The translations under genes and the position numbers were made by a program. Below are positions 8,228 through 47,484 of a stretch of 64,000 nucleotides of DNA, one piece after another. A model generated the notes under the pieces. The model had not been told where the DNA came from and ran no database searches. It worked only from the letters and a program-made list of their open reading frames with translations. The stretch comes from Bacteroidota bacterium (GTDB lineage Bacteria; Bacteroidota; Bacteroidia; Chitinophagales; Chitinophagaceae): the NCBI GenBank assembly GCA_028876495.1, contig JAGWRO010000062.1, forward strand, positions 124,001-188,000. The letters are read 5' to 3'. Within the stretch, counting starts at the first letter, position 1. Each line of letters opens with the position of its first letter.

Positions 8228-10831
8228 TCACACCTCACGCCTCAGCACCTCCAACGGTGGCCGGTTTAAAATTCCAAAACTATTTATCAGGCCCGTGATT
8301 ATCGTAAGCAGGCAAACCGCCAATGCCAAAATCAGTACAGGCAATAAATTGGGATGAAATGGCGTATCAAAAACATAATGCGCCAATGCCCAGCTTCCGG
8401 CGAGCGCTAAGAGAAACCCGGTGAGCGCAGCCAGCAAGCCAAGGAAAAAATATTCGAGCGCGGTGATGGCCAGTATTCGTTTGCGGCTTGCGCCCAGCGT
8501 TCGCAGCAATACACTTTCCTGCATGCGCTGGTATTTGCTGATCAGGACGGATGAGATCAAAACCACCAATCCTGTGAGAATGCTGAAACCCGCCATGAAG
8601 CGGATCACAAAACCAATCTTATCCATAATTGAATTCAATACACGCAATACCAAACCGAGATCAATGATAGAAACATTCGGATATTGTTGCACCATTTCAC
8701 GCTGAAATTTTGCCGAAACTTCCTGCGAAGGAACTTTGGTAAGTATCACTTCAAACTGCGGCGCATCGTTGATAACTCCTTCAGGAAAAACGATTAAAAA
8801 GTTCGTTCGAATCCGGCTCCAGTCCACTTCCCTGAAACTGCCCACAACGGTTTTGATCATCACGCCCTGCACATTAAAAGTGACGGTATCGCCGATATTA
8901 ATGCCGTTTCTCTTTGCGTAATTTTCTTCCATCGAAATCGGCGGTAGACCTTTGGGCGGCGCGTTTCCTGTCCATTTCCCTTTGGTAATCTTTTCTGTAG
9001 AAGTCAGCGAATCGCGGAAAGTGCAACGGTATTCTCTTGTAAAAAGATACCGTGAATATTTTAGCGTGGAATCTTTTTTAAGATCGGCAGCAGTAATTCC
9101 ATTTACTTCATCGAGCCGCATATTTACGATCGGAATCATTTCCTTTACAGGCAGACCGTTGCCTTTTACCAAATTAGCTACACCTTCTTTCTGGCTGCTT
9201 TGAATATCAAACAAAACCATATTGGGCTGATCTTCACTGGTGGCGATGGTAACGCGACCAAGCAAAATAGATTGTACAAAAAACAACGTGCTGATAAGCG
9301 CCGTTCCAAGTCCGATTGAAATGATGAGAATGGTTGTCTGGTTATTCGGGCGATAAAGATTTGCAAGTCCCTGCCTCCATAAATAACTCCATGAAGAAGG
9401 GAAAAATCGTCTTACCAGCCACATTAATAATCGCGCAATCGCGGCAAGGATTACTAAAGCGGCCGCTATGCTCAGCGTGAAATAAAATGCTTTTTTCCAG
9501 TTGCTCATTTCCAGCCATGAAAAGCCATAAACAAATAAAGCGATGAGGCCATAGATCGACCATTTTATCGGATCTTGTTTTTTGACTGCCGGTTCAAAAG
9601 AAGCGCGCAACGCCTGTAAGGGCGATACTTTACGAATAAAAATCAATGGCAACAAAGCAAACAAAATCGAGATGCCGGTGCCCAAAATAATGCCTTCAAA
9701 AACGGCTGTCCATGAAACACTTGTTGTAATCGTTACTGGCAAAAAATCTTTTAAAACAAAAGGTAGAAATTGTTGTATCGCAACTCCCAGGGCTGCGCCG
9801 GCAATTGAACCGATAAAACCAATGCACACGATCTGCACGAGAAAAATAATAAACGCCTGCGAGGCTTTTGCGCCAAGGCAACGGAGGATGGCAATGGAAT
9901 TTATTTTTTCTTTTACATACACATGCACCGCGCTCGCTACTCCTGTGCATCCAAGCAGCAAAGCGATAAAACCGACGAGTGAAAGAAAACGCGTAAGGTC
10001 GGCAAATGAGCGGCCCGTATCCTCCTTTTGCGTTTCGACAGTATCATAATGGTAATCGTTTGCTTCGAGAACAGGCTTTATCTGGTCTGTCAGTTTTTGT
10101 TCATCAACCGCATGATTGAATTTTATAAAATAATGGTAACTGATGCGGCTGCCTTTTTGCATCAGTTGAGTTTGTTTGAGGTAATGAAGGGGAATGTAAA
10201 CAATCGGGGCGATCGAAGAAGTAAAACCCGTTTGACCCGGCGCATTGATCAACTTTCCTGCAATGGCAAAAGTTACTTCACCCACTTTTATCGAATCGCC
10301 GGGTTTAGCATTAAACTGCAACATAAGCGTTTCATCCACCAAAGCTTCCTGCTTGTTTCTGAAATAAGAAGCTGCAGAAGCAGGTTCGGTTTCCAATGAA
10401 CCGTAATAAGGAAATTGCCCGCTTAGGGCACGCACCTGTATCAATCTTGTTCCGCCATTTTTGAGAAACAAAACCATGGAAGCAAAATTCCGCTGTTGTG
10501 ATTGTTGTCCGCCAAGAGAATCAAGTAGGTTTTGAATTGGTTCAGCAGGTGCTTGATTTCCGGAGATCTCAAGATCGGCGCCAAGCAGTGAAGCTGCCTG
10601 GTTGTTTACTTCGTCGCGCAAATTATTTCCGAGAGAATAAATGGCTACCAGCGCTGCAATGCCGAGAATAATGGAAGAGATAAAAAGAAAAAGACGCGAA
10701 CGGCTTCTGCGGCTGTCGCGCCAGGCCATCTGCAACAGCCATTTGAAATGAAGCGCATTAAGAATTCCGTTATTTTCTTCCTGCCCGAATGATTCGTTCA
10801 GGCGGGTGTTTACTGTATCACTATCGTTCAT
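8228..10831 (-). CDS. ABC transporter permease, FtsX-like (YbbP type)
   Basis: 867 residues with two FtsX-type repeats. A first TM after about residue 40 (LFLFISSIILGIAALVAIYS) is followed by a large MacB-like periplasmic domain, then TM groups near 275-400 (SIAILRCLGAKASQAF is the typical FtsX loop), 425-480, a second periplasmic domain, and a C-terminal three-TM block (SVLLRTLGASRKRILAITAL). Its start overlaps the upstream ATPase gene by four bases (ATGA), so the two are translationally coupled. YbbA-YbbP-type complexes are thought to act in envelope lipid or hydrophobic compound handling; the substrate is not established. The TesA-like esterase gene diverges just upstream, the same gene set as in E. 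coli. Confidence 0.9.
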   Translation of the reverse strand: MNDSDTVNTRLNESFGQEENNGILNALHFKWLLQMAWRDSRRSRSRLFLFISSIILGIAALVAIYSLGNNLRDEVNNQAASLLGADLEISGNQAPAEPIQNLLDSLGGQQSQQRNFASMVLFLKNGGTRLIQVRALSGQFPYYGSLETEPASAASYFRNKQEALVDETLMLQFNAKPGDSIKVGEVTFAIAGKLINAPGQTGFTSSIAPIVYIPLHYLKQTQLMQKGSRISYHYFIKFNHAVDEQKLTDQIKPVLEANDYHYDTVETQKEDTGRSFADLTRFLSLVGFIALLLGCTGVASAVHVYVKEKINSIAILRCLGAKASQAFIIFLVQIVCIGFIGSIAGAALGVAIQQFLPFVLKDFLPVTITTSVSWTAVFEGIILGTGISILFALLPLIFIRKVSPLQALRASFEPAVKKQDPIKWSIYGLIALFVYGFSWLEMSNWKKAFYFTLSIAAALVILAAIARLLMWLVRRFFPSSWSYLWRQGLANLYRPNNQTTILIISIGLGTALISTLFFVQSILLGRVTIATSEDQPNMVLFDIQSSQKEGVANLVKGNGLPVKEMIPIVNMRLDEVNGITAADLKKDSTLKYSRYLFTREYRCTFRDSLTSTEKITKGKWTGNAPPKGLPPISMEENYAKRNGINIGDTVTFNVQGVMIKTVVGSFREVDWSRIRTNFLIVFPEGVINDAPQFEVILTKVPSQEVSAKFQREMVQQYPNVSIIDLGLVLRVLNSIMDKIGFVIRFMAGFSILTGLVVLISSVLISKYQRMQESVLLRTLGASRKRILAITALEYFFLGLLAALTGFLLALAGSWALAHYVFDTPFHPNLLPVLILALAVCLLTIITGLINSFGILNRPPLEVLRREV

Positions 10832-11547
10832 CTTGAATTTTTATGGCCTCCAATGTTGCTATTTATTTTGGTTGGATTATCCGATATAATCCTTCCTCCT
10901 TTTAAATGTATGATTCGCTGCGTTCGCGATGCCAGTTCATCATCATGCGTAACCAAAACCAAAGTTGTTCCTGCTTCCTGGTTCAAACCGAAAATAAGAT
11001 CAACGATTTTTCCGCTGGTTTCTGCATCAAGATTTCCTGTGGGTTCGTCAGCAAATAAAATGGAAGGCCGGTTGGAAAAAGCGCGGGCAATAGAAACTCT
11101 TTGTTGCTCGCCGCCGCTCAATTGCGCCGGGTAATGATGGCTCCTTTCTGCCAGCCCGACTTTATCCAAAAACTCCATGGCACGAGAGCGTACTTTTTTT
11201 TCTCCGCGAAGTTCGAGAGGCACCATTACATTTTCGATTGCCGTTAATGTGGGCAACAATTGAAAGTTTTGAAAAATAAAACCGACATAACGATTTCTTA
11301 CTGCCGCAAGCTGGTCTTCATTTAAACTTTCCAAATGATTTTGTTGTAATTCAACACTCCCGTAAGTAGGTTGGTCAAGCCCTGCAGATAAACCCAGCAA
11401 AGTTGTTTTTCCACTTCCTGATGGGCCGACTATCGACATTGTTGAACCAGCCTCCACTGAAAAGGTGATATTGTCGAGCACCGTTAAAAAGCTGCCCCCA
11501 CTTTTATAATTCTTGGTTACGTTTTGAAGAGAAAGAATGGTTTCCAT
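10828..11547 (-). CDS. ABC transporter ATP-binding protein (LolD/YbbA type)
   Basis: 239 residues from the ATG at 11547 (METILSLQNVTKNY); an upstream in-frame ATG at 11601 adds 18 residues that do not belong to the domain. Walker A is GPSGSGKTTLL, the Q-loop lies at FQNFQLLPTLTAIENV, the signature is LSGGEQQRVSIARAF, Walker B is ILFADEPTGNLD and the H-loop is LVTHD. It energises the FtsX-type permease encoded immediately downstream with a four-base overlap. Confidence 0.93.
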   Translation of the reverse strand: METILSLQNVTKNYKSGGSFLTVLDNITFSVEAGSTMSIVGPSGSGKTTLLGLSAGLDQPTYGSVELQQNHLESLNEDQLAAVRNRYVGFIFQNFQLLPTLTAIENVMVPLELRGEKKVRSRAMEFLDKVGLAERSHHYPAQLSGGEQQRVSIARAFSNRPSILFADEPTGNLDAETSGKIVDLIFGLNQEAGTTLVLVTHDDELASRTQRIIHLKGGRIISDNPTKINSNIGGHKNSR

Positions 11548-11590
11548 TATGATTATTTTTTCCAGGTACCAATTAAAAAATTCATCAGGG

Positions 11591-11598
11591 TATCTTTG
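11591..11598 (+). promoter_or_regulatory. Candidate -7 box for the tesA-like gene
   Basis: TATCTTTG fits the Bacteroidota -7 consensus TAnnTTTG, 57 bases ahead of the esterase start. No clear -33 TTG at the usual distance was seen. Confidence 0.35.
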
Positions 11599-11654
11599 CA
11601 AAAGATAAATGATGAGGATGAAAGTATTTAATAAAAATAATTAATTCTGTTTTA

Positions 11655-42088: not shown

Positions 42089-45000
42089 ATGGAGGAATTA
42101 TTTAAGGACTTTGGAAAAGTTTTTATTCGTACACCCCTATATTCTTATTTATCCCTTTTTGATAATAATAATGAAACGAAAAATTTAGAAGATCTTGTTC
42201 ATTTACGGCTTGCCGACCCTGTTTTTTTAGAGGCATTGTATTGGAGTTCTCCGCAATTGTTTGAGGCTGTTTTAAAATTAAAAGAAGGCAGGCTTAAAGG
42301 TCCGAAAGAAAATAAATTGATGCATACATTAAAAAAGTATCTCATCCGGGCAAGTACCAGATGCACACCTTATGGTATTTATGCAGGAACAAGTCTCTCC
42401 AATTTAGGCATTGAGCCAGACAATACAGATAGCCAAATGGAACGCAAAGTAAGGGTGGATATGGGTTTAATGCAAAATATTAAATCAAGGCTGGAATCCG
42501 ATGCCGAAATTTATCCTCACTTGCTATATTCAGTTAATAATTCTCTGTATAGTATTCCAGGCCAATTCCGTTTTATGGAAACCCTTTTTGAAAACGGGAA
42601 ATCAAATTACCAGTTAAGTTCCCTCGACCACACTATAGTTCTGGAAAATATAGTAAAGCGGGCCAAAAGTAGCTTGATATCATTTGCTGATATTCATATT
42701 TTGCTGGGAATGGATAATTCAATTGAAGAGGTGAATGATTTTATAAATGAACTTATAAAAACACAATTTTTGCTTAGCGAACTGCAGCCAGGTGCAACAG
42801 CAGTCACTCTGTTAGACAAATATGCGTCAGTTTTGAATAGATTATCAGCAGAGGGTATTATTGCCGCAAAAAAATATCTGCATCTTTTTTCAAAGATCCA
42901 AAATGTATTACTTCAATTTAATAATTTGCCCATAGGAGTTCTGCCGGTTGAAGAAATAAAATACCTAAAAGATTTGCTGGATGAATGTGGAATTGAAAAG
43001 TTACAGGATCATATATTTCATGCAGACCTGAAAAAGCCAATTCCCCCTGACTTTATATTTTCTGAGGATAAAGTAAATGAAGTAAAAAAAGGAATTTCTA
43101 TTTTAGGAAAACTAAGCGGTACTTCTTCTCCGGAAAAAAATAAAATGGATGAATTCAAAATCCTTTTCCGGCAAAAGTATGATACACGTGAAATCCTCTT
43201 ATCTGAAGCATTGGACCCTGAATTTGGTATTGGATTTCCTCCTAAAGAATCCATAGGTGATACGGGCTTCAATTTCTTAATAGAGAAAGTGGTATCATCC
43301 TCTGAAAATTCTGAAAAAGACAAAACTTTTAATTGGCAGACATGGCTGAAGGATAAAGCAGGAGCTTTAAATGATCCAATTGAAAAAGGAGAAATTCAAA
43401 TTGAAGAGAAAGAACTGGAAGGGATAAATGATCATCTTTACCTGCTGCCCGGAACCTTTTCGGTATTGGGAAGTTTACTGCCTTCAGGAAAGATATTGCT
43501 CGAAGGAGTAGGAAGCACTCATGCAAATTCTTTGCTTGGAAGGTTTGCTTATCTGGATGAGAAAATGGAAGCAGTATGTAATGAATTGGCAAATGCTGAA
43601 AAAAAAAATAATCCTGAAGTTATTTTTGCTGAAATAATATTTGTTCCGGAAGGAAGGGAGGGCAACGTTACATCAAGGCCGGTCTTTACTGAATATGAAA
43701 TCCCTTTACTTGCAAGTGCTGGTTTAGGAGCAGGAAAGCGAATACCCGTGAATGATTTGCTTGTATCAATACGGGAAAACGAAATTATACTTAGGTCCGG
43801 GAAATTGAATCAACGGGTTATTCCGCGGCTTTCAAATGCACATAATTACATGAATAGCCCTGTACCCGTTTATCAATTTTTATCTGCTGTTCAGCATAGT
43901 GAATACGGGGAATTAGGTATTAACTTGGGCAATTGCTTTTCTAATAAAAGTTTTTTACCACGAATTGCTTTTGATAATATTATTTTTCACCGGGCAAGGT
44001 GGTTTTTAAGGGAAAAGGATATATCTGGAATTACCGAATCAGATGACCCTTTAAACGCGTTGGCGGATTTTTTTAAAAAGTGGAATGTTCCACGGTTTGT
44101 TAGCTTTGCAGAGGGGGATAATGAATTATTTATAGATTCTGCCAATCATAGTTATTTAGAACTTCTGTTAGAGGGAATGAGAAGGAGTAATTATGTAAAA
44201 CTTGTTGAATGGGTGTATGAAAGTAGTGGGGTAAATAGTTTAAATATTGAAAAAATGCCTCTGCTTCAATTTATTCTGCCTTTAGCTAAAAGTAATAAAA
44301 CCCATTTCAAGACAATAAAAAAGTCAGGAACACCCCATCATGTTCAACAAATCTTTGAACCAGGAAGTGAGTGGGTTTACTTTAAGATTTATTGCGGAGC
44401 TACTTTCTCGGATAAAATTCTAATAAACGTTATAAGTCCGGCTATCCATTTACTTTTGAAAGAAAGCGTAATAAAAAAAGCATTTTTTATTCGTTATGCA
44501 GATCCTCATTACCATATTCGTTTTCGGTTGCAATTAGTTAATAGTATTGATAAGGAGCACCTTACAACTGTAATGAAAACTGTTTATGATTTGGTTCATC
44601 CTTTTTCTGTAAACCGCACGATTTGGAAGTTTCAGTTAGATACCTATGAAAGAGAAATAGAGCGTTATGGAGAGGATTCAATATTGGACAGTGAATTTGT
44701 TTTTTATCAGGATAGCCTTTTATATCTTAATTGCTTGCAGGATGAAGAGTATATGCAAGATAGCATGATTAGATTCTTAAGCGCAATTAAAAATATGGAT
44801 AAATGGCTAACGCTCTTTAAAATGTCTGTGGAAGAAAAAGCGGATTATTGTTTAAGCATTTGTGACTCCTTTGCCAGGGAGTATGATTCATCTGTAAAAT
44901 TCCAGTTTGATTTAAAGTACAGGGAATTTAAAAATCTACTACCGTCATTTTTGAATTCTGATAGGTTTGAAAAGGAATTTAAAGAAAGAGACAATAGTTT

Positions 45001-45154
45001 GAATGAGATTTTAATGCCAAAAGAAAATTTTGGCAGTTATATTCACATGAGTATGAACAGGTGGTTTTTTACTCAACAAAGGCTTATGGAATATATGTGT
45101 TATCTCTTTAGTCATAAATATTATAAACAACTTTTACATTATAATCAGAATTAA
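42089..45154 (+). CDS. lanB: LanB-type lantibiotic dehydratase (full length, glutamylation and elimination domains)
   Basis: 1021 residues, the length of class I LanB enzymes such as NisB. The N-terminus VFIRTPLYSYLSLF places Arg14 in the position of a conserved LanB arginine, and LIRASTRCTPYGIYAG (86-101) matches the Arg/Thr motif of the glutamylation domain. The C-terminal part is a SpaB_C-type elimination domain: EWVYFKIYCG (761-770), FFIRYADPHYHIRFRL (799-814) and VNRTIWKFQLDTYEREIERYG. LanB transfers glutamate from tRNA to Ser/Thr of a precursor and then eliminates it to give dehydro residues. No LanC, protease or ABC exporter gene is adjacent; the gene is followed within seven bases by a frame for a LytS-type kinase. 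Confidence 0.92.
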   Translation: MEELFKDFGKVFIRTPLYSYLSLFDNNNETKNLEDLVHLRLADPVFLEALYWSSPQLFEAVLKLKEGRLKGPKENKLMHTLKKYLIRASTRCTPYGIYAGTSLSNLGIEPDNTDSQMERKVRVDMGLMQNIKSRLESDAEIYPHLLYSVNNSLYSIPGQFRFMETLFENGKSNYQLSSLDHTIVLENIVKRAKSSLISFADIHILLGMDNSIEEVNDFINELIKTQFLLSELQPGATAVTLLDKYASVLNRLSAEGIIAAKKYLHLFSKIQNVLLQFNNLPIGVLPVEEIKYLKDLLDECGIEKLQDHIFHADLKKPIPPDFIFSEDKVNEVKKGISILGKLSGTSSPEKNKMDEFKILFRQKYDTREILLSEALDPEFGIGFPPKESIGDTGFNFLIEKVVSSSENSEKDKTFNWQTWLKDKAGALNDPIEKGEIQIEEKELEGINDHLYLLPGTFSVLGSLLPSGKILLEGVGSTHANSLLGRFAYLDEKMEAVCNELANAEKKNNPEVIFAEIIFVPEGREGNVTSRPVFTEYEIPLLASAGLGAGKRIPVNDLLVSIRENEIILRSGKLNQRVIPRLSNAHNYMNSPVPVYQFLSAVQHSEYGELGINLGNCFSNKSFLPRIAFDNIIFHRARWFLREKDISGITESDDPLNALADFFKKWNVPRFVSFAEGDNELFIDSANHSYLELLLEGMRRSNYVKLVEWVYESSGVNSLNIEKMPLLQFILPLAKSNKTHFKTIKKSGTPHHVQQIFEPGSEWVYFKIYCGATFSDKILINVISPAIHLLLKESVIKKAFFIRYADPHYHIRFRLQLVNSIDKEHLTTVMKTVYDLVHPFSVNRTIWKFQLDTYEREIERYGEDSILDSEFVFYQDSLLYLNCLQDEEYMQDSMIRFLSAIKNMDKWLTLFKMSVEEKADYCLSICDSFAREYDSSVKFQFDLKYREFKNLLPSFLNSDRFEKEFKERDNSLNEILMPKENFGSYIHMSMNRWFFTQQRLMEYMCYLFSHKYYKQLLHYNQN

Positions 45155-45185
45155 TAGAAAAGTGGATTATATAAACAAAAATAAC

Positions 45186-46325
45186 ATGACTAGGCGGCCT
45201 TTTCTTGAAAGACTTGCCGCTTTTAATTTTGACAGGTTTTATACTCCCCGAACCCGTTTTTTATTTCACTTTTTAATGTGGCTTATATTCACTTTTCTTC
45301 TACAAATTACCTTGTTTTTCGATTCCAGCCTTCCTTTGAACAATACTTTTGCTTTTGCGGGCAGAAGTTTGATATGTAATATGACTCTTTTTTATCTTTT
45401 TTTTTATGTTGTCGTTCCGCATACAATTTTAAGAAACAGGATTATTCTTGCGATCCTTTCTATCCCGGTTTGTATAATAATATGGCTCATTCTTAACCAC
45501 GTGTGCCTGGTTTTTATTGGCAGGCATTTTAAGGTAGAAGCACCTTATTATAAGCAAGGCATAGAAGCGCATCTCCACCGAAGTATTGCCAGCGAAATAT
45601 CACCTATGAATATTCTTGTCGGACTGGTTCCTATATTTTATTCTATTTCACCGTTCTTCTTTACTAAGATCGTTTTTGATATTATTCGATTTTATTCCAA
45701 ATGGTTCAAATCAGAAAAAAAGACGGTGAAATTAGAAATCGAGAAATTAAATCTTGAAAAGGATTTTCTGAAGGCGCAGCTTAACCCTCATTTTTTATTT
45801 AATACCTTAAACAATTTATACGGTCTTTCTTTGCGAAGTGACCCGCAAACTCCACTGGTGATTACCCAGCTTTCAGAAATGATGCGCTATACTCTTTATG
45901 AATCTAATGCTGAAATGGTACCTGTTGCCAAAGAACTTGAATATCTTAAGAATTATGTTCTTATGGAAAAAATGCGTTATAAAAATAATACAGACATAAC
46001 ATTTAATATCGATGATTCACAAGTAGACAGACAAATGATTGCACCATTACTTACTTTTACTTTTGTTGAGAACGGATTCAAATATGGATTAAAATCGAAG
46101 AATGAAGGATTTATAAAAATTAATATTTCTGTTCTCGACAATATTTTTTATTTTACTATAGTAAATGATAAAACAGAAAAAAATACTCAGAAAGAATTTG
46201 GGGGAATAGGCCATGAAAATGTAAGAAAGCGATTACAACTTTTATATCCCGAAAAGCATGAATTGGAAATATCAGACCGGGGTAAAACATTTTATGTTGG
46301 GTTGGTGATAAATCTACAAAAATAA
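45186..46325 (+). CDS. LytS-type sensor histidine kinase (His_kinase family)
   Basis: 379 residues from the ATG at 45186; a GTG at 45162, seven bases after the lanB stop, is also possible. Four hydrophobic segments are seen (LFHFLMWLIFTFLLQITLFF, LFYLFFYVVVPHTIL, AILSIPVCIIIWLILNHV, ILVGLVPIFYSISPFFF). A cytoplasmic kinase core follows, with the H-box LKAQLNPHFLFNTLNNLYGL (His202 from this start) and the N-box region LLTFTFVENGFKYGL; ATPase glycines are at GGIGHENVRKRLQLLYP. It autophosphorylates and passes phosphate to the LytTR regulator encoded two bases downstream. Tight spacing with lanB implies one operon. Confidence 0.92.
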   Translation: MTRRPFLERLAAFNFDRFYTPRTRFLFHFLMWLIFTFLLQITLFFDSSLPLNNTFAFAGRSLICNMTLFYLFFYVVVPHTILRNRIILAILSIPVCIIIWLILNHVCLVFIGRHFKVEAPYYKQGIEAHLHRSIASEISPMNILVGLVPIFYSISPFFFTKIVFDIIRFYSKWFKSEKKTVKLEIEKLNLEKDFLKAQLNPHFLFNTLNNLYGLSLRSDPQTPLVITQLSEMMRYTLYESNAEMVPVAKELEYLKNYVLMEKMRYKNNTDITFNIDDSQVDRQMIAPLLTFTFVENGFKYGLKSKNEGFIKINISVLDNIFYFTIVNDKTEKNTQKEFGGIGHENVRKRLQLLYPEKHELEISDRGKTFYVGLVINLQK

Positions 46326-46327
46326 AT

Positions 46328-47044
46328 ATGAGTACAATTAAATGTCTGATTATAGATGATGAGCCAATAGGTCGTGAGATTACGGAAAACTTTGCAAAGC
46401 ATATTCATTTTCTGGAAGTGGTGGCTGTATGTGAAGATGCATTAGAAGCAATGGACATCCTTGAAAATACTCAAATTGATCTATTACTTACCGATATACA
46501 AATGCCTAAAATTAATGGGTTGGAGTTGGTTTCTTCCTTACCTTCTCCACCGATCATCATCTTTATTACCGCTCATGACAAATTTGCAATAAATAGCTTT
46601 GAATTGGGTGTTGCCGATTATTTATTGAAGCCGGTGGCTTTTGACAGGTTTTTAAAGGCTATTAACAAGGCTAAATTAGAAATTGAAATTCGAAAGGGTG
46701 CTTCATTAAATCCGAATAAAAGTAGTGAACATATTTTTATTAAGGCTAACAACAAATTAAACAAAATTAATTACAGTGATATCCTTTACATAGAATCTTT
46801 AAAGGATTATATAAAAATATTTACTGCAGAAGAGGTTTTGATAACCTATTCGAGCATGAAAGCTATAGAAGAAAAATTACCACTCATGCAGTTTGTCAGG
46901 ATTCATAATTCGTATCTTGTATCCATAAAAGCTGTAAAGGCAGTAATGGGAAACACGGTTGAGTTAACCAACGAAGTATCATTACCGATCTCCAAAAGTC
47001 GTAAAGACGAACTATTTGCTGCTTTAGATATCAATAATCAATAA
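46328..47044 (+). CDS. LytTR-family response regulator of the lanB operon
   Basis: 238 residues. The receiver domain (IKCLIIDDEPIGREI) has phospho-acceptor Asp56 (LLLTDIQMPKINGLE), and the usual Thr and Lys (FITAHDKF, ADYLLKPVAF). The LytTR domain at about 135-235 has HIFIKANNKLNKINYSDILY, KDYIKIF and FVRIHNSYLVSI. Its gene begins two bases after the kinase stop. The best candidate targets in the window are the three 21-base-period direct repeats at 40484, 41691 and 47231. Confidence 0.93.
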   Translation: MSTIKCLIIDDEPIGREITENFAKHIHFLEVVAVCEDALEAMDILENTQIDLLLTDIQMPKINGLELVSSLPSPPIIIFITAHDKFAINSFELGVADYLLKPVAFDRFLKAINKAKLEIEIRKGASLNPNKSSEHIFIKANNKLNKINYSDILYIESLKDYIKIFTAEEVLITYSSMKAIEEKLPLMQFVRIHNSYLVSIKAVKAVMGNTVELTNEVSLPISKSRKDELFAALDINNQ

Positions 47045-47059
47045 TTATTTTCTACTACT

Positions 47060-47218
47060 GTGAAGGCTCTGCCATCTTTTAAAAGTATGGAATCCGTTAT
47101 ATTAAAAGTTGATTCTAAAAAAATAAATTTTTCAACTGATATAAAGGTTAGAAGCGGTAATTTGAAAATGGAATTAGCCAATATTGGCATATTGTCGGAT
47201 TTTCCAAAAATCCCCTAA
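47060..47218 (+). CDS. Unassigned small ORF downstream of the response regulator
   Basis: The frame stays open after the regulator stop codon (47042-47044), in the same frame, up to TAA at 47216. Starts are GTG 47060 (52 residues) or ATG 47087 (43 residues). The peptide (MESVILKVDSKKINFSTDIK, then VRSGNLKMELANIGILSDFP) is not recognised. It could be a real small gene, a remnant of a longer gene, or chance. No Cys and no precursor-leader pattern. Confidence 0.25.
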   Translation: MKALPSFKSMESVILKVDSKKINFSTDIKVRSGNLKMELANIGILSDFPKIP

Positions 47219-47230
47219 TTGTGGTTAATT

Positions 47231-47260
47231 GTCGAGTATTTCTGTCTAAACGTCTAAAAT
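47231..47260 (+). promoter_or_regulatory. Putative LytTR operator, copy C, upstream of the precursor gene
   Basis: GTCGAGTAT (47231-47239) and GTCTAAAAT (47252-47260), 21-base period, 60 bases before the second ATG of the precursor frame. An additional GTCTAAA at 47244 lies between them. Confidence 0.5.
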
Positions 47261-47319
47261 ATTTTTAAACTAAGATGATAAAAGTAAGTTTTGCATCTAA
47301 TCATCTAAAAAAATCTCGT

Positions 47320-47484
47320 ATGACTTCAACTACTTTAAATTCCAAGAAAGAAAATTTACTGGTTAGGAAAAATGTTATTGTAAAGTTTGATTCGGCTCAT
47401 TCTAAGAATGACTCGCAAAAGCGTAATATGAATAGGATAACTATTACAATCCCTACTATTATAGGAACATCAATTGCCTATTAA
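47320..47484 (+). CDS. Candidate cysteine-free RiPP precursor peptide for LanB
   Basis: 54 residues from ATG 47320; ATG 47275 in the same frame would give 69. Residues 13-23 (LLVRKNVIVKF) follow the LxxKxxIxxF leader pattern of Bacteroidota class I lanthipeptide precursors. After a polar linker (SAHSKNDSQKRNMN) the peptide ends RITITIPTIIGTSIAY, with Thr41, 43, 46, 50 and Ser51 available for dehydration. There is no Cys anywhere, so (methyl)lanthionine rings cannot form within the peptide. There is no GG or obvious protease site apart from Lys34-Arg35. It follows the lanB-kinase-regulator genes and has its own putative operator. Precursor status is an inference from leader pattern, position and duplicated locus. 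Confidence 0.6.
   Translation: MTSTTLNSKKENLLVRKNVIVKFDSAHSKNDSQKRNMNRITITIPTIIGTSIAY

Follow-up and report, generated by a model that had tools for sequence, protein, structure and literature searches.

A LanB–LytS/LytTR cassette with a cysteine-free precursor peptide and no LanC in a Chitinophagaceae genome: a candidate source of ring-free dehydropeptides

In a 64,000-nucleotide stretch of DNA from a Bacteroidota bacterium of the family Chitinophagaceae (positions 124,001 to 188,000 of contig JAGWRO010000062.1, assembly GCA_028876495.1; hereafter the window), four co-directional genes at 42089-47484 encode a full-length class I lantibiotic dehydratase (LanB), a LytS-type histidine kinase, a LytTR response regulator and a peptide of 54 residues. 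Counterparts of all four genes are found together in ten further loci, whose LanB proteins form a clade with that of the window. We consider it probable (about 0.6) that the quartet is a modification-and-control cassette in which LanB dehydrates the cysteine-free core of the peptide, no lanthionine is formed, and the genes are under the control of their own two-component system. The parts of this cassette, their co-inheritance, the motifs kept in them and the lack of core Cys and of LanC beside lanB are observed directly. The features of the window, with the evidence for each in brackets, are as follows.

42089-45154, + strand: lanB, full-length class I lantibiotic dehydratase with glutamylation and elimination domains, 1021 residues (Pfam PF04738 and PF14028, match to NisB 4wd9, motif conservation)
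45162-46325, + strand: LytS-type histidine kinase, 387 residues, GTG start (PF06580; homologue in 11 of 11 clade loci)
46328-47044, + strand: LytTR response regulator, 238 residues (PF00072 and PF04397; homologue in 11 of 11 clade loci)
47230-47257, + strand: putative LytTR operator TGTCGAG-N14-CGTCTAA with a 21-bp period (11 of 14 positions match the motif from relatives)
47285-47293, + strand: putative -7 box TAAGTTTTG, 27 nucleotides (nt) after the repeat (alike in the other ten loci; by eye)
47320-47484, + strand: precursor peptide gene, 54 residues, leader LxVxKx5F and Cys-free core ending RITITIPTIIGTSIAY (open reading frame, profile, family alignment)

Results

The dehydratase and its two-component system

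The kinase gene starts 7 nt after the lanB gene, the regulator gene follows 2 nt after the kinase gene, and the peptide gene lies 275 nt further on. An earlier note on this DNA, made from the sequence alone, had proposed a full-length LanB with both domains followed directly by a LytS-type kinase and a LytTR regulator, and the Pfam profiles bear this out with matches over the cut-off in every case: Lant_dehydr_N (PF04738, 7.7e-103) and Lant_dehydr_C (PF14028, 2.7e-50) for the dehydratase, His_kinase (PF06580, 4.7e-24) for the kinase, and Response_reg (PF00072, 2.7e-22) and LytTR (PF04397, 1.6e-19) for the regulator. Amongst PDB chains, the dehydratase matches NisB (4wd9) over residues 42-969 (6.7e-34), and its best structural match is 9g04 (3.2e-52, residues 1-1017). 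It is the only LanB found by profile search in the genome (4.7 Mb in 99 contigs). Seven of the eight conserved LanB stretches that we inspected are kept in all eleven clade members, with IRxxTRxTP[YF]G, RYxDPHxHxRxR, REIERYG and SYIHMSxNRWF present in each of them, and the first three of these have counterparts in the NisB alignment. From work on NisB, we take these four stretches to hold the residues of glutamylation and elimination (i.e. the catalytic residues).

The downstream peptide belongs to a family of Thr-rich, Cys-free cores

The longest frame for the small open reading frame (ORF) begins at 47275, and the ATG at 47320 gives the 54 residues; this start is favoured because the peptides of the relatives begin MSTKK.., MTTKK.. 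or MTTSQ.. As claimed earlier, the peptide has five Thr/Ser in its last 14 residues and no Cys. The core ends NRITITIPTIIGTSIAY, and those of the relatives end in stretches such as DTTVTIPPTGFTTF, SLITVTLPTTSFSMM, TDITITGGMTSTI and TDLTITGSLYPL. Homologues are found directly after the LytTR gene and on the same strand in 11/11 loci, with a gap of 102-275 nt, so that the peptide has a counterpart beside lanB in all ten relatives that we found. The leader pattern of the earlier note is present, with its form corrected from LxxKxxIxxF to LxVxKx5F: the eleven leaders have L-x-[IV]-x-K-x5 in common, with L13, K17 and K22 invariant and T41 and T43 nearly invariant across the peptides (window numbering), and the last position of the motif is F in the window, L in two relatives (loci L049 and L073, i.e. 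L-x-[IV]-x-K-x5-L) and C in the other eight. A loose form of this pattern, [LIV]x[LIV]xKx5[LIVFC], is matched by all eleven downstream peptides. Where leader motifs are discussed in PMC7268733, FxLD or LxLxKx5L are given for class I precursors, with LxLxKx5L reported for Bacteroidetes, and the LxVxKx5F of the window appears to be a variant of the latter.

None of the eleven peptides has a Cys within its last 25 residues, and those of the window, L049 and L073 are wholly Cys-free, the other eight having Cys in the leader (VCKCK, once VSKCK). Amongst the last 16 residues of the eleven peptides (176 residues), 53 are Thr (30%) and none is Cys, compared with a Thr background of 4.7% in four window proteins. 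When a profile was built from the ten relatives without the window peptide, the window frame was ranked first of 1372 stop-to-stop frames (E=0.0012, with the next at 1.6), and with a profile from L049 and L073 only it was again first, at an E-value of 0.018 which lies beyond the HMMER inclusion limit. The ratio of non-synonymous to synonymous changes (pN/pS) was 0.18 for four homologues of equal length from a single genus (g7). A chance ORF is ruled out by the ten-relative profile and this ratio, and a chance neighbour by the homologous gene at the equivalent place in every locus. A profile of all eleven peptides finds one confident copy per genome in 11/11 genomes, always the peptide beside lanB, with two further matches across these genomes which both have E-values above 0.3. 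The window frame has no match to a Pfam or NCBIfam family, and none to PDB chains up to E=1.

A second small ORF lies between the LytTR gene and the repeat (47060-47218, with an ATG at 47087), and has a leader-like LKVDSKKINF and no Cys. It was set aside as a second precursor, having no family match, no place amongst the listed hits of the profile and no counterpart that we noticed in the relatives, and may be a remnant precursor or a chance frame.

Relatives of the cassette and two architectures

LanB searches were made in 394 genomes of the family, 396 of the order, 395 of the phylum and 79 + 3 + 6 of individual genera (the sets overlap, and the first three are samples). Ten related LanBs are 42-48% identical to that of the window in our own alignment, and everything else listed is at 33% or less. 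The relatives fall in three other genera of the family, g7 (7/79 genomes), g16 (2/3) and g19 (1/6), and there was no LanB match in the other 19 genomes of the window's own genus, ten of which have a completeness of 90% or more. A tree of 27 LanBs sets the eleven clade members apart by a long-stemmed branch supported at 100/100; within the clade, the window groups with G251 (L049) and G1072 (L073) at 95/91, and the other eight group at 100/99.

The loci have two architectures. Nine of the eleven have, upstream of lanB, homologues of an outer-membrane barrel protein, a radical SAM protein, an ABC transporter with a C39 peptidase and an HlyD protein, and none of these four is found in the window (26 kb around the cassette) or in the G251 stretch compared. 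Pfam was used to test the families for L047 (radical SAM, barrel and C39), L051 (radical SAM) and L050 (SagB-like and flavoprotein), with the remaining assignments made by similarity; the weakest of these is the L073 radical SAM protein (23%), and the L073 locus has no match to a 281-residue protein. The missing exporter noted earlier is thus true of the window and G251, whereas in the nine relatives a C39 exporter adjoins lanB. Extending the comparison to the full window adds one match, of the relatives' C39 transporter to an ATPase at 32%; this ATPase is part of an ABC ATPase and permease-like pair (recognised by eye) at 8228-11601, more than 30 kb from the cassette.

L073 is informative here. 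Its transporter shares 80-83% identity with the transporters of the eight loci of the other type, whereas its kinase is 49 and 62% identical to the window and G251 kinases (25-29% to the other eight), its regulator matches the regulators of these two loci at 58 and 62% identity (35-36% for the other eight), and its peptide is of the window and G251 type. The L073 LanB is closest to that of G251 (54%), with the window (45%) and L047 (47%) about equally far. On these comparisons LanB, kinase, regulator and peptide look like one unit, which is our strongest argument for the downstream peptide as the substrate of LanB.

Further genes were seen in some of the relatives (positions are for oriented loci). 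L047 (2976-3865) and L048 (3457-4006) have tandem GG-leader peptides with NISKC[YH]CT near the end, between the barrel and radical SAM genes. Both g16 loci, L050 (2425-4161) and L051 (2266-3928), have genes for a SagB-like dehydrogenase and for a flavoprotein (PF02441), with the family assignments tested in L050 alone. In L049 (15256-15615) and L073 (14907-15269), both of subtype A, a stand-alone receiver-domain protein of about 120 residues follows directly after the peptide gene (by Pfam for L049), and this was not seen after the peptide gene of the window.

LanC is missing from the clade loci

LanC was sought at the loci with a profile made from five outgroup proteins that Pfam calls LANC_like, in about 20 kb for each clade locus and 64 kb for the window, and was found in 0/11 clade loci vs 16/20 other LanB loci (the profile proteins came from five of the 16 positive loci, and for three of the four loci without a match only 10-13 kb of sequence was covered). 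A genome-wide search found no LANC_like match over the curated cut-off in two of the eleven clade genomes, the window's and G251, and these are the two in which the cassette is reduced to four genes; Peptidase_C39 also has no match in the window's genome. The check proposed in the earlier note, a search of the genome for LanC or peptidase-containing ABC transporters, thus gave no LanC over the cut-off and no C39 domain. Two sub-cut-off LANC_like matches in the window's genome are similar proteins of 364 residues with a signal-peptide-like start (by eye), one of which (L002) sits between frames resembling sugar-metabolism genes (by eye). We rejected this pair as LanC.

A direct repeat upstream of the peptide gene

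The binding sites of LytTR regulators are direct repeats spaced by about two helical turns. In ten of the eleven loci, the gap between the LytTR and peptide genes holds a direct repeat resembling TGTCGAA-N14-GGTCGAA (11 or more of 14 positions matching); its period is 21 (22 in L049), and it starts 90-108 nt ahead of the start codon. In the window this is TGTCGAG...CGTCTAA at 47230, an 11/14 match located 90 nt before the peptide start codon. It should be noted that the motif was read off the relatives first, which makes this a fair test for the window and not for the relatives. Six places score 11 or more at spacings of 20-22 on both strands of the 64 kb, the window repeat included, which puts the chance expectation for the gap at about 0.01. 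L073 has, by eye, just one half site at the corresponding position. At 27 nt past the repeat or half site, the other ten loci share a similar box of nine letters, picked by eye. Self-induction through the two-component system, as suggested in the earlier note, gains some support from this LytTR-type repeat and is plausible though unproven.

Neighbourhood of the cassette

Twelve proteins between 33.1 and 57.7 kb of the window were scanned with Pfam, and eleven gave matches. To one side of the cassette are a DUF2807 protein, NusB, a DUF1573 protein, YajC (a housekeeping Sec accessory), CoaE, a GH63-like hydrolase, a cytochrome c and an unmatched protein of 149 residues, and to the other an AraC-type response regulator, a hybrid-type sensor kinase and a SusC/SusD pair. 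The SusC/SusD genes, like the LanB relatives, point to the Bacteroidota. No LanC, peptidase or dedicated peptide exporter was found amongst these neighbours, in agreement with what had been noted before, and no YcaO protein was found amongst them (a genome-wide YcaO search was not made). No immunity gene was recognised among the window genes scanned, which would agree with a signal role for the peptide at least as well as with a bacteriocin. An anti-phage reading was also tried and dropped, with PADLOC giving no match for LanB, the kinase or the peptide.

Discussion

How the cassette may work

We infer the following course of events. LanB would recognise the leader of the 47320 peptide through the LxVxKx5F stretch, attach glutamate from tRNA-Glu as an ester to the Thr and Ser residues of the core, and then eliminate the glutamate to leave dehydrobutyrine (Dhb) and dehydroalanine. 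Because the core has no Cys and the genome no recognisable cyclase, these residues would stay open, and the predicted product is a ring-free peptide rich in dehydroamino acids, of the type I-Dhb-I-Dhb-I-P-Dhb. Anti-elimination is predicted for the full-length LanBs in the network of PMC9486935, from which the Z isomer would result. As GG is absent from the window peptide, a cut by a C39 peptidase is not expected. The peptide gene would be controlled by the kinase and LytTR regulator through the direct repeat 90 nt upstream, and in a natural model the exported product would activate the kinase. The linear dehydropeptide interpretation of the earlier note is supported by the LanB motifs, the Cys-free cores, the lack of LanC at the loci and the single peptide copy per genome, with the dehydration itself predicted from these.

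A number of findings speak against this interpretation. At the eighth of the conserved LanB stretches, where the ten relatives have N[IV]ARR, the window has NVTSR, and its peptide is only 22-34% identical to those of the relatives. The leader has Cys in subtype B, where Cys also takes the last motif position, and L073 is without the full repeat (8/14). LANC_like proteins over the cut-off are found elsewhere in nine of the eleven clade genomes, some LanC-sized and others within longer frames (in G366 C4, the sole neighbourhood inspected, the protein is beside a second LanB, L055), and a distant LanC could act in those nine genomes, though the cores have no Cys. The window also lacks the exporter and accessory module of the nine relatives, and its cassette could be reduced or could rely on unlinked export.

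The same module provides a candidate competing substrate. In eight loci it encodes a Lys-rich peptide with a double-glycine (GG) leader which ends TTVDTHWPTT or alike, with a homologue in L073 (PSVDPQWPTT), and these GG peptides are located beside the radical SAM protein and C39 exporter (6437-6640 in L047, 6577-6792 in L048, 6406-6606 in L051 and alike, oriented). They too are rich in Thr and lack Cys, and the loose leader motif (VDIDKLKAFGI type) is found in eight of the nine, which also counts against our interpretation.

Alternative explanations

It is therefore conceivable that LanB serves mainly or also the radical SAM module, with the upstream GG peptides as its substrates and the downstream peptide in a minor or regulatory role. 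The GG peptides are in a syntenic module in 9/11 loci next to a C39 exporter that could cut at the GG, and their DTTVDTHWPT resembles, by eye, the DTTVTIPPT of downstream cores. Nonetheless, the module is absent from the window and G251 while LanB and the downstream peptide persist, the downstream-peptide profile picks up none of the GG peptides up to E=5, and the leader pattern which they fit is loose; we give this explanation little weight. Such loci look like a radical SAM module for a ribosomally synthesised and post-translationally modified peptide (RiPP) joined to the LanB cassette, and LanB may act on both peptides in those genomes, with the downstream peptide alone remaining in the window and G251.

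A different objection is that the dehydrated core may only be an intermediate which reacts with Lys, the N-terminal amine, glutathione or the thiol of another peptide, or is reduced, to give a cross-linked or adducted product. Dehydroamino acids of Bacteroidota LanB products take up glutathione in Escherichia coli in experiments described in PMC9993889, and extra modification genes adjoin the cassette in relatives (radical SAM proteins in 9/11 loci by similarity, with Pfam support for L047 and L051, and the SagB-like dehydrogenase and flavoprotein of L050). We nevertheless regard it as unlikely, as the window (26 kb around the cassette) and G251 have no homologues of the radical SAM, C39 transporter or HlyD proteins in the stretches compared, yet have kept LanB and the peptide. 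The loss of the exporter and module, the lack of any C39 domain in the genome and the absence of LanB from 19/19 other members of the genus could also mean that the window copy is the decaying remnant of a larger, exporter-bearing cluster and makes nothing. This too seems distinctly improbable to us when set against the intact, full-length frames of LanB, kinase and regulator, a peptide and repeat that are both recognisable, and the equally reduced form carried by G251.

Comparison with known systems

The cassette resembles a class I lanthipeptide system of which only the dehydration half is present. It has in common with the class I lanthipeptides of Bacteroidetes (LanB and LanC with an LxLxKx5L leader) the full-length LanB, with both Lant_dehydr_N and Lant_dehydr_C, and what appears to be a variant of the leader motif, and differs from them in having no LanC, no core Cys and no GG site before the window core. 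As LanC and core Cys, both of them features that define lanthipeptides, were tested for and neither was found, the system should not be filed as a lanthipeptide. Kinase and LytTR-like pairs are also seen near lanB in LanC-bearing outgroup loci (L052, L053 and L074-L077; by eye). Linaridins of the cypemycin type have Thr-derived dehydrobutyrines in a largely linear peptide, as is predicted for the window product, and are made by enzymes other than LanB. The Flavobacterium locus L012, with no LanC in 19 kb, is perhaps another LanC-free LanB system, but its LanB is in two frames and 29% identical to that of the window. Dehydroamino acids are also kept in dehydrazoles, thiopeptides and goadsporin, where, by the account in PMC10676384, YcaO azole chemistry is combined with a split LanB or LanMbC; in contrast, the window LanB is one chain and its scanned neighbours include no YcaO.

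The pinensins are named in PMC7268733 as the class I lanthipeptides that had been isolated from Bacteroidetes by then. According to its description of the survey method, this large genome survey of lanthipeptides by Walker et al. took LANC_like as its starting point and dropped ORFs whose estimated core had no Cys, a design by which a LanB family of the window type would be missed. Amongst the matches listed in open-access literature, we found no full-length LanB with Cys-free precursors and no LanC, which is weak evidence of absence. There is a fair chance that the cassette deserves a class of its own once the product has been seen. The fuller proposal, of a separate RiPP class defined by a monophyletic LanB family with no cyclase and no Cys-bearing substrate, making ring-free, dehydrobutyrine-rich autoinducers which act through a co-inherited LytS/LytTR pair, with the four genes moving together, is one that we put forward tentatively and consider more doubtful than not.

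Should the product prove to be a linear dehydropeptide, a natural product would have a full-length LanB as its only maturation enzyme, and this would separate dehydration from ring closure in class I systems. With four genes and eleven known natural variants, the cassette is small and directly testable by co-expression. Were the peptide to act as a signal, it would count as a dehydrated pheromone from the Bacteroidota, a phylum for which we know of few peptide signals.

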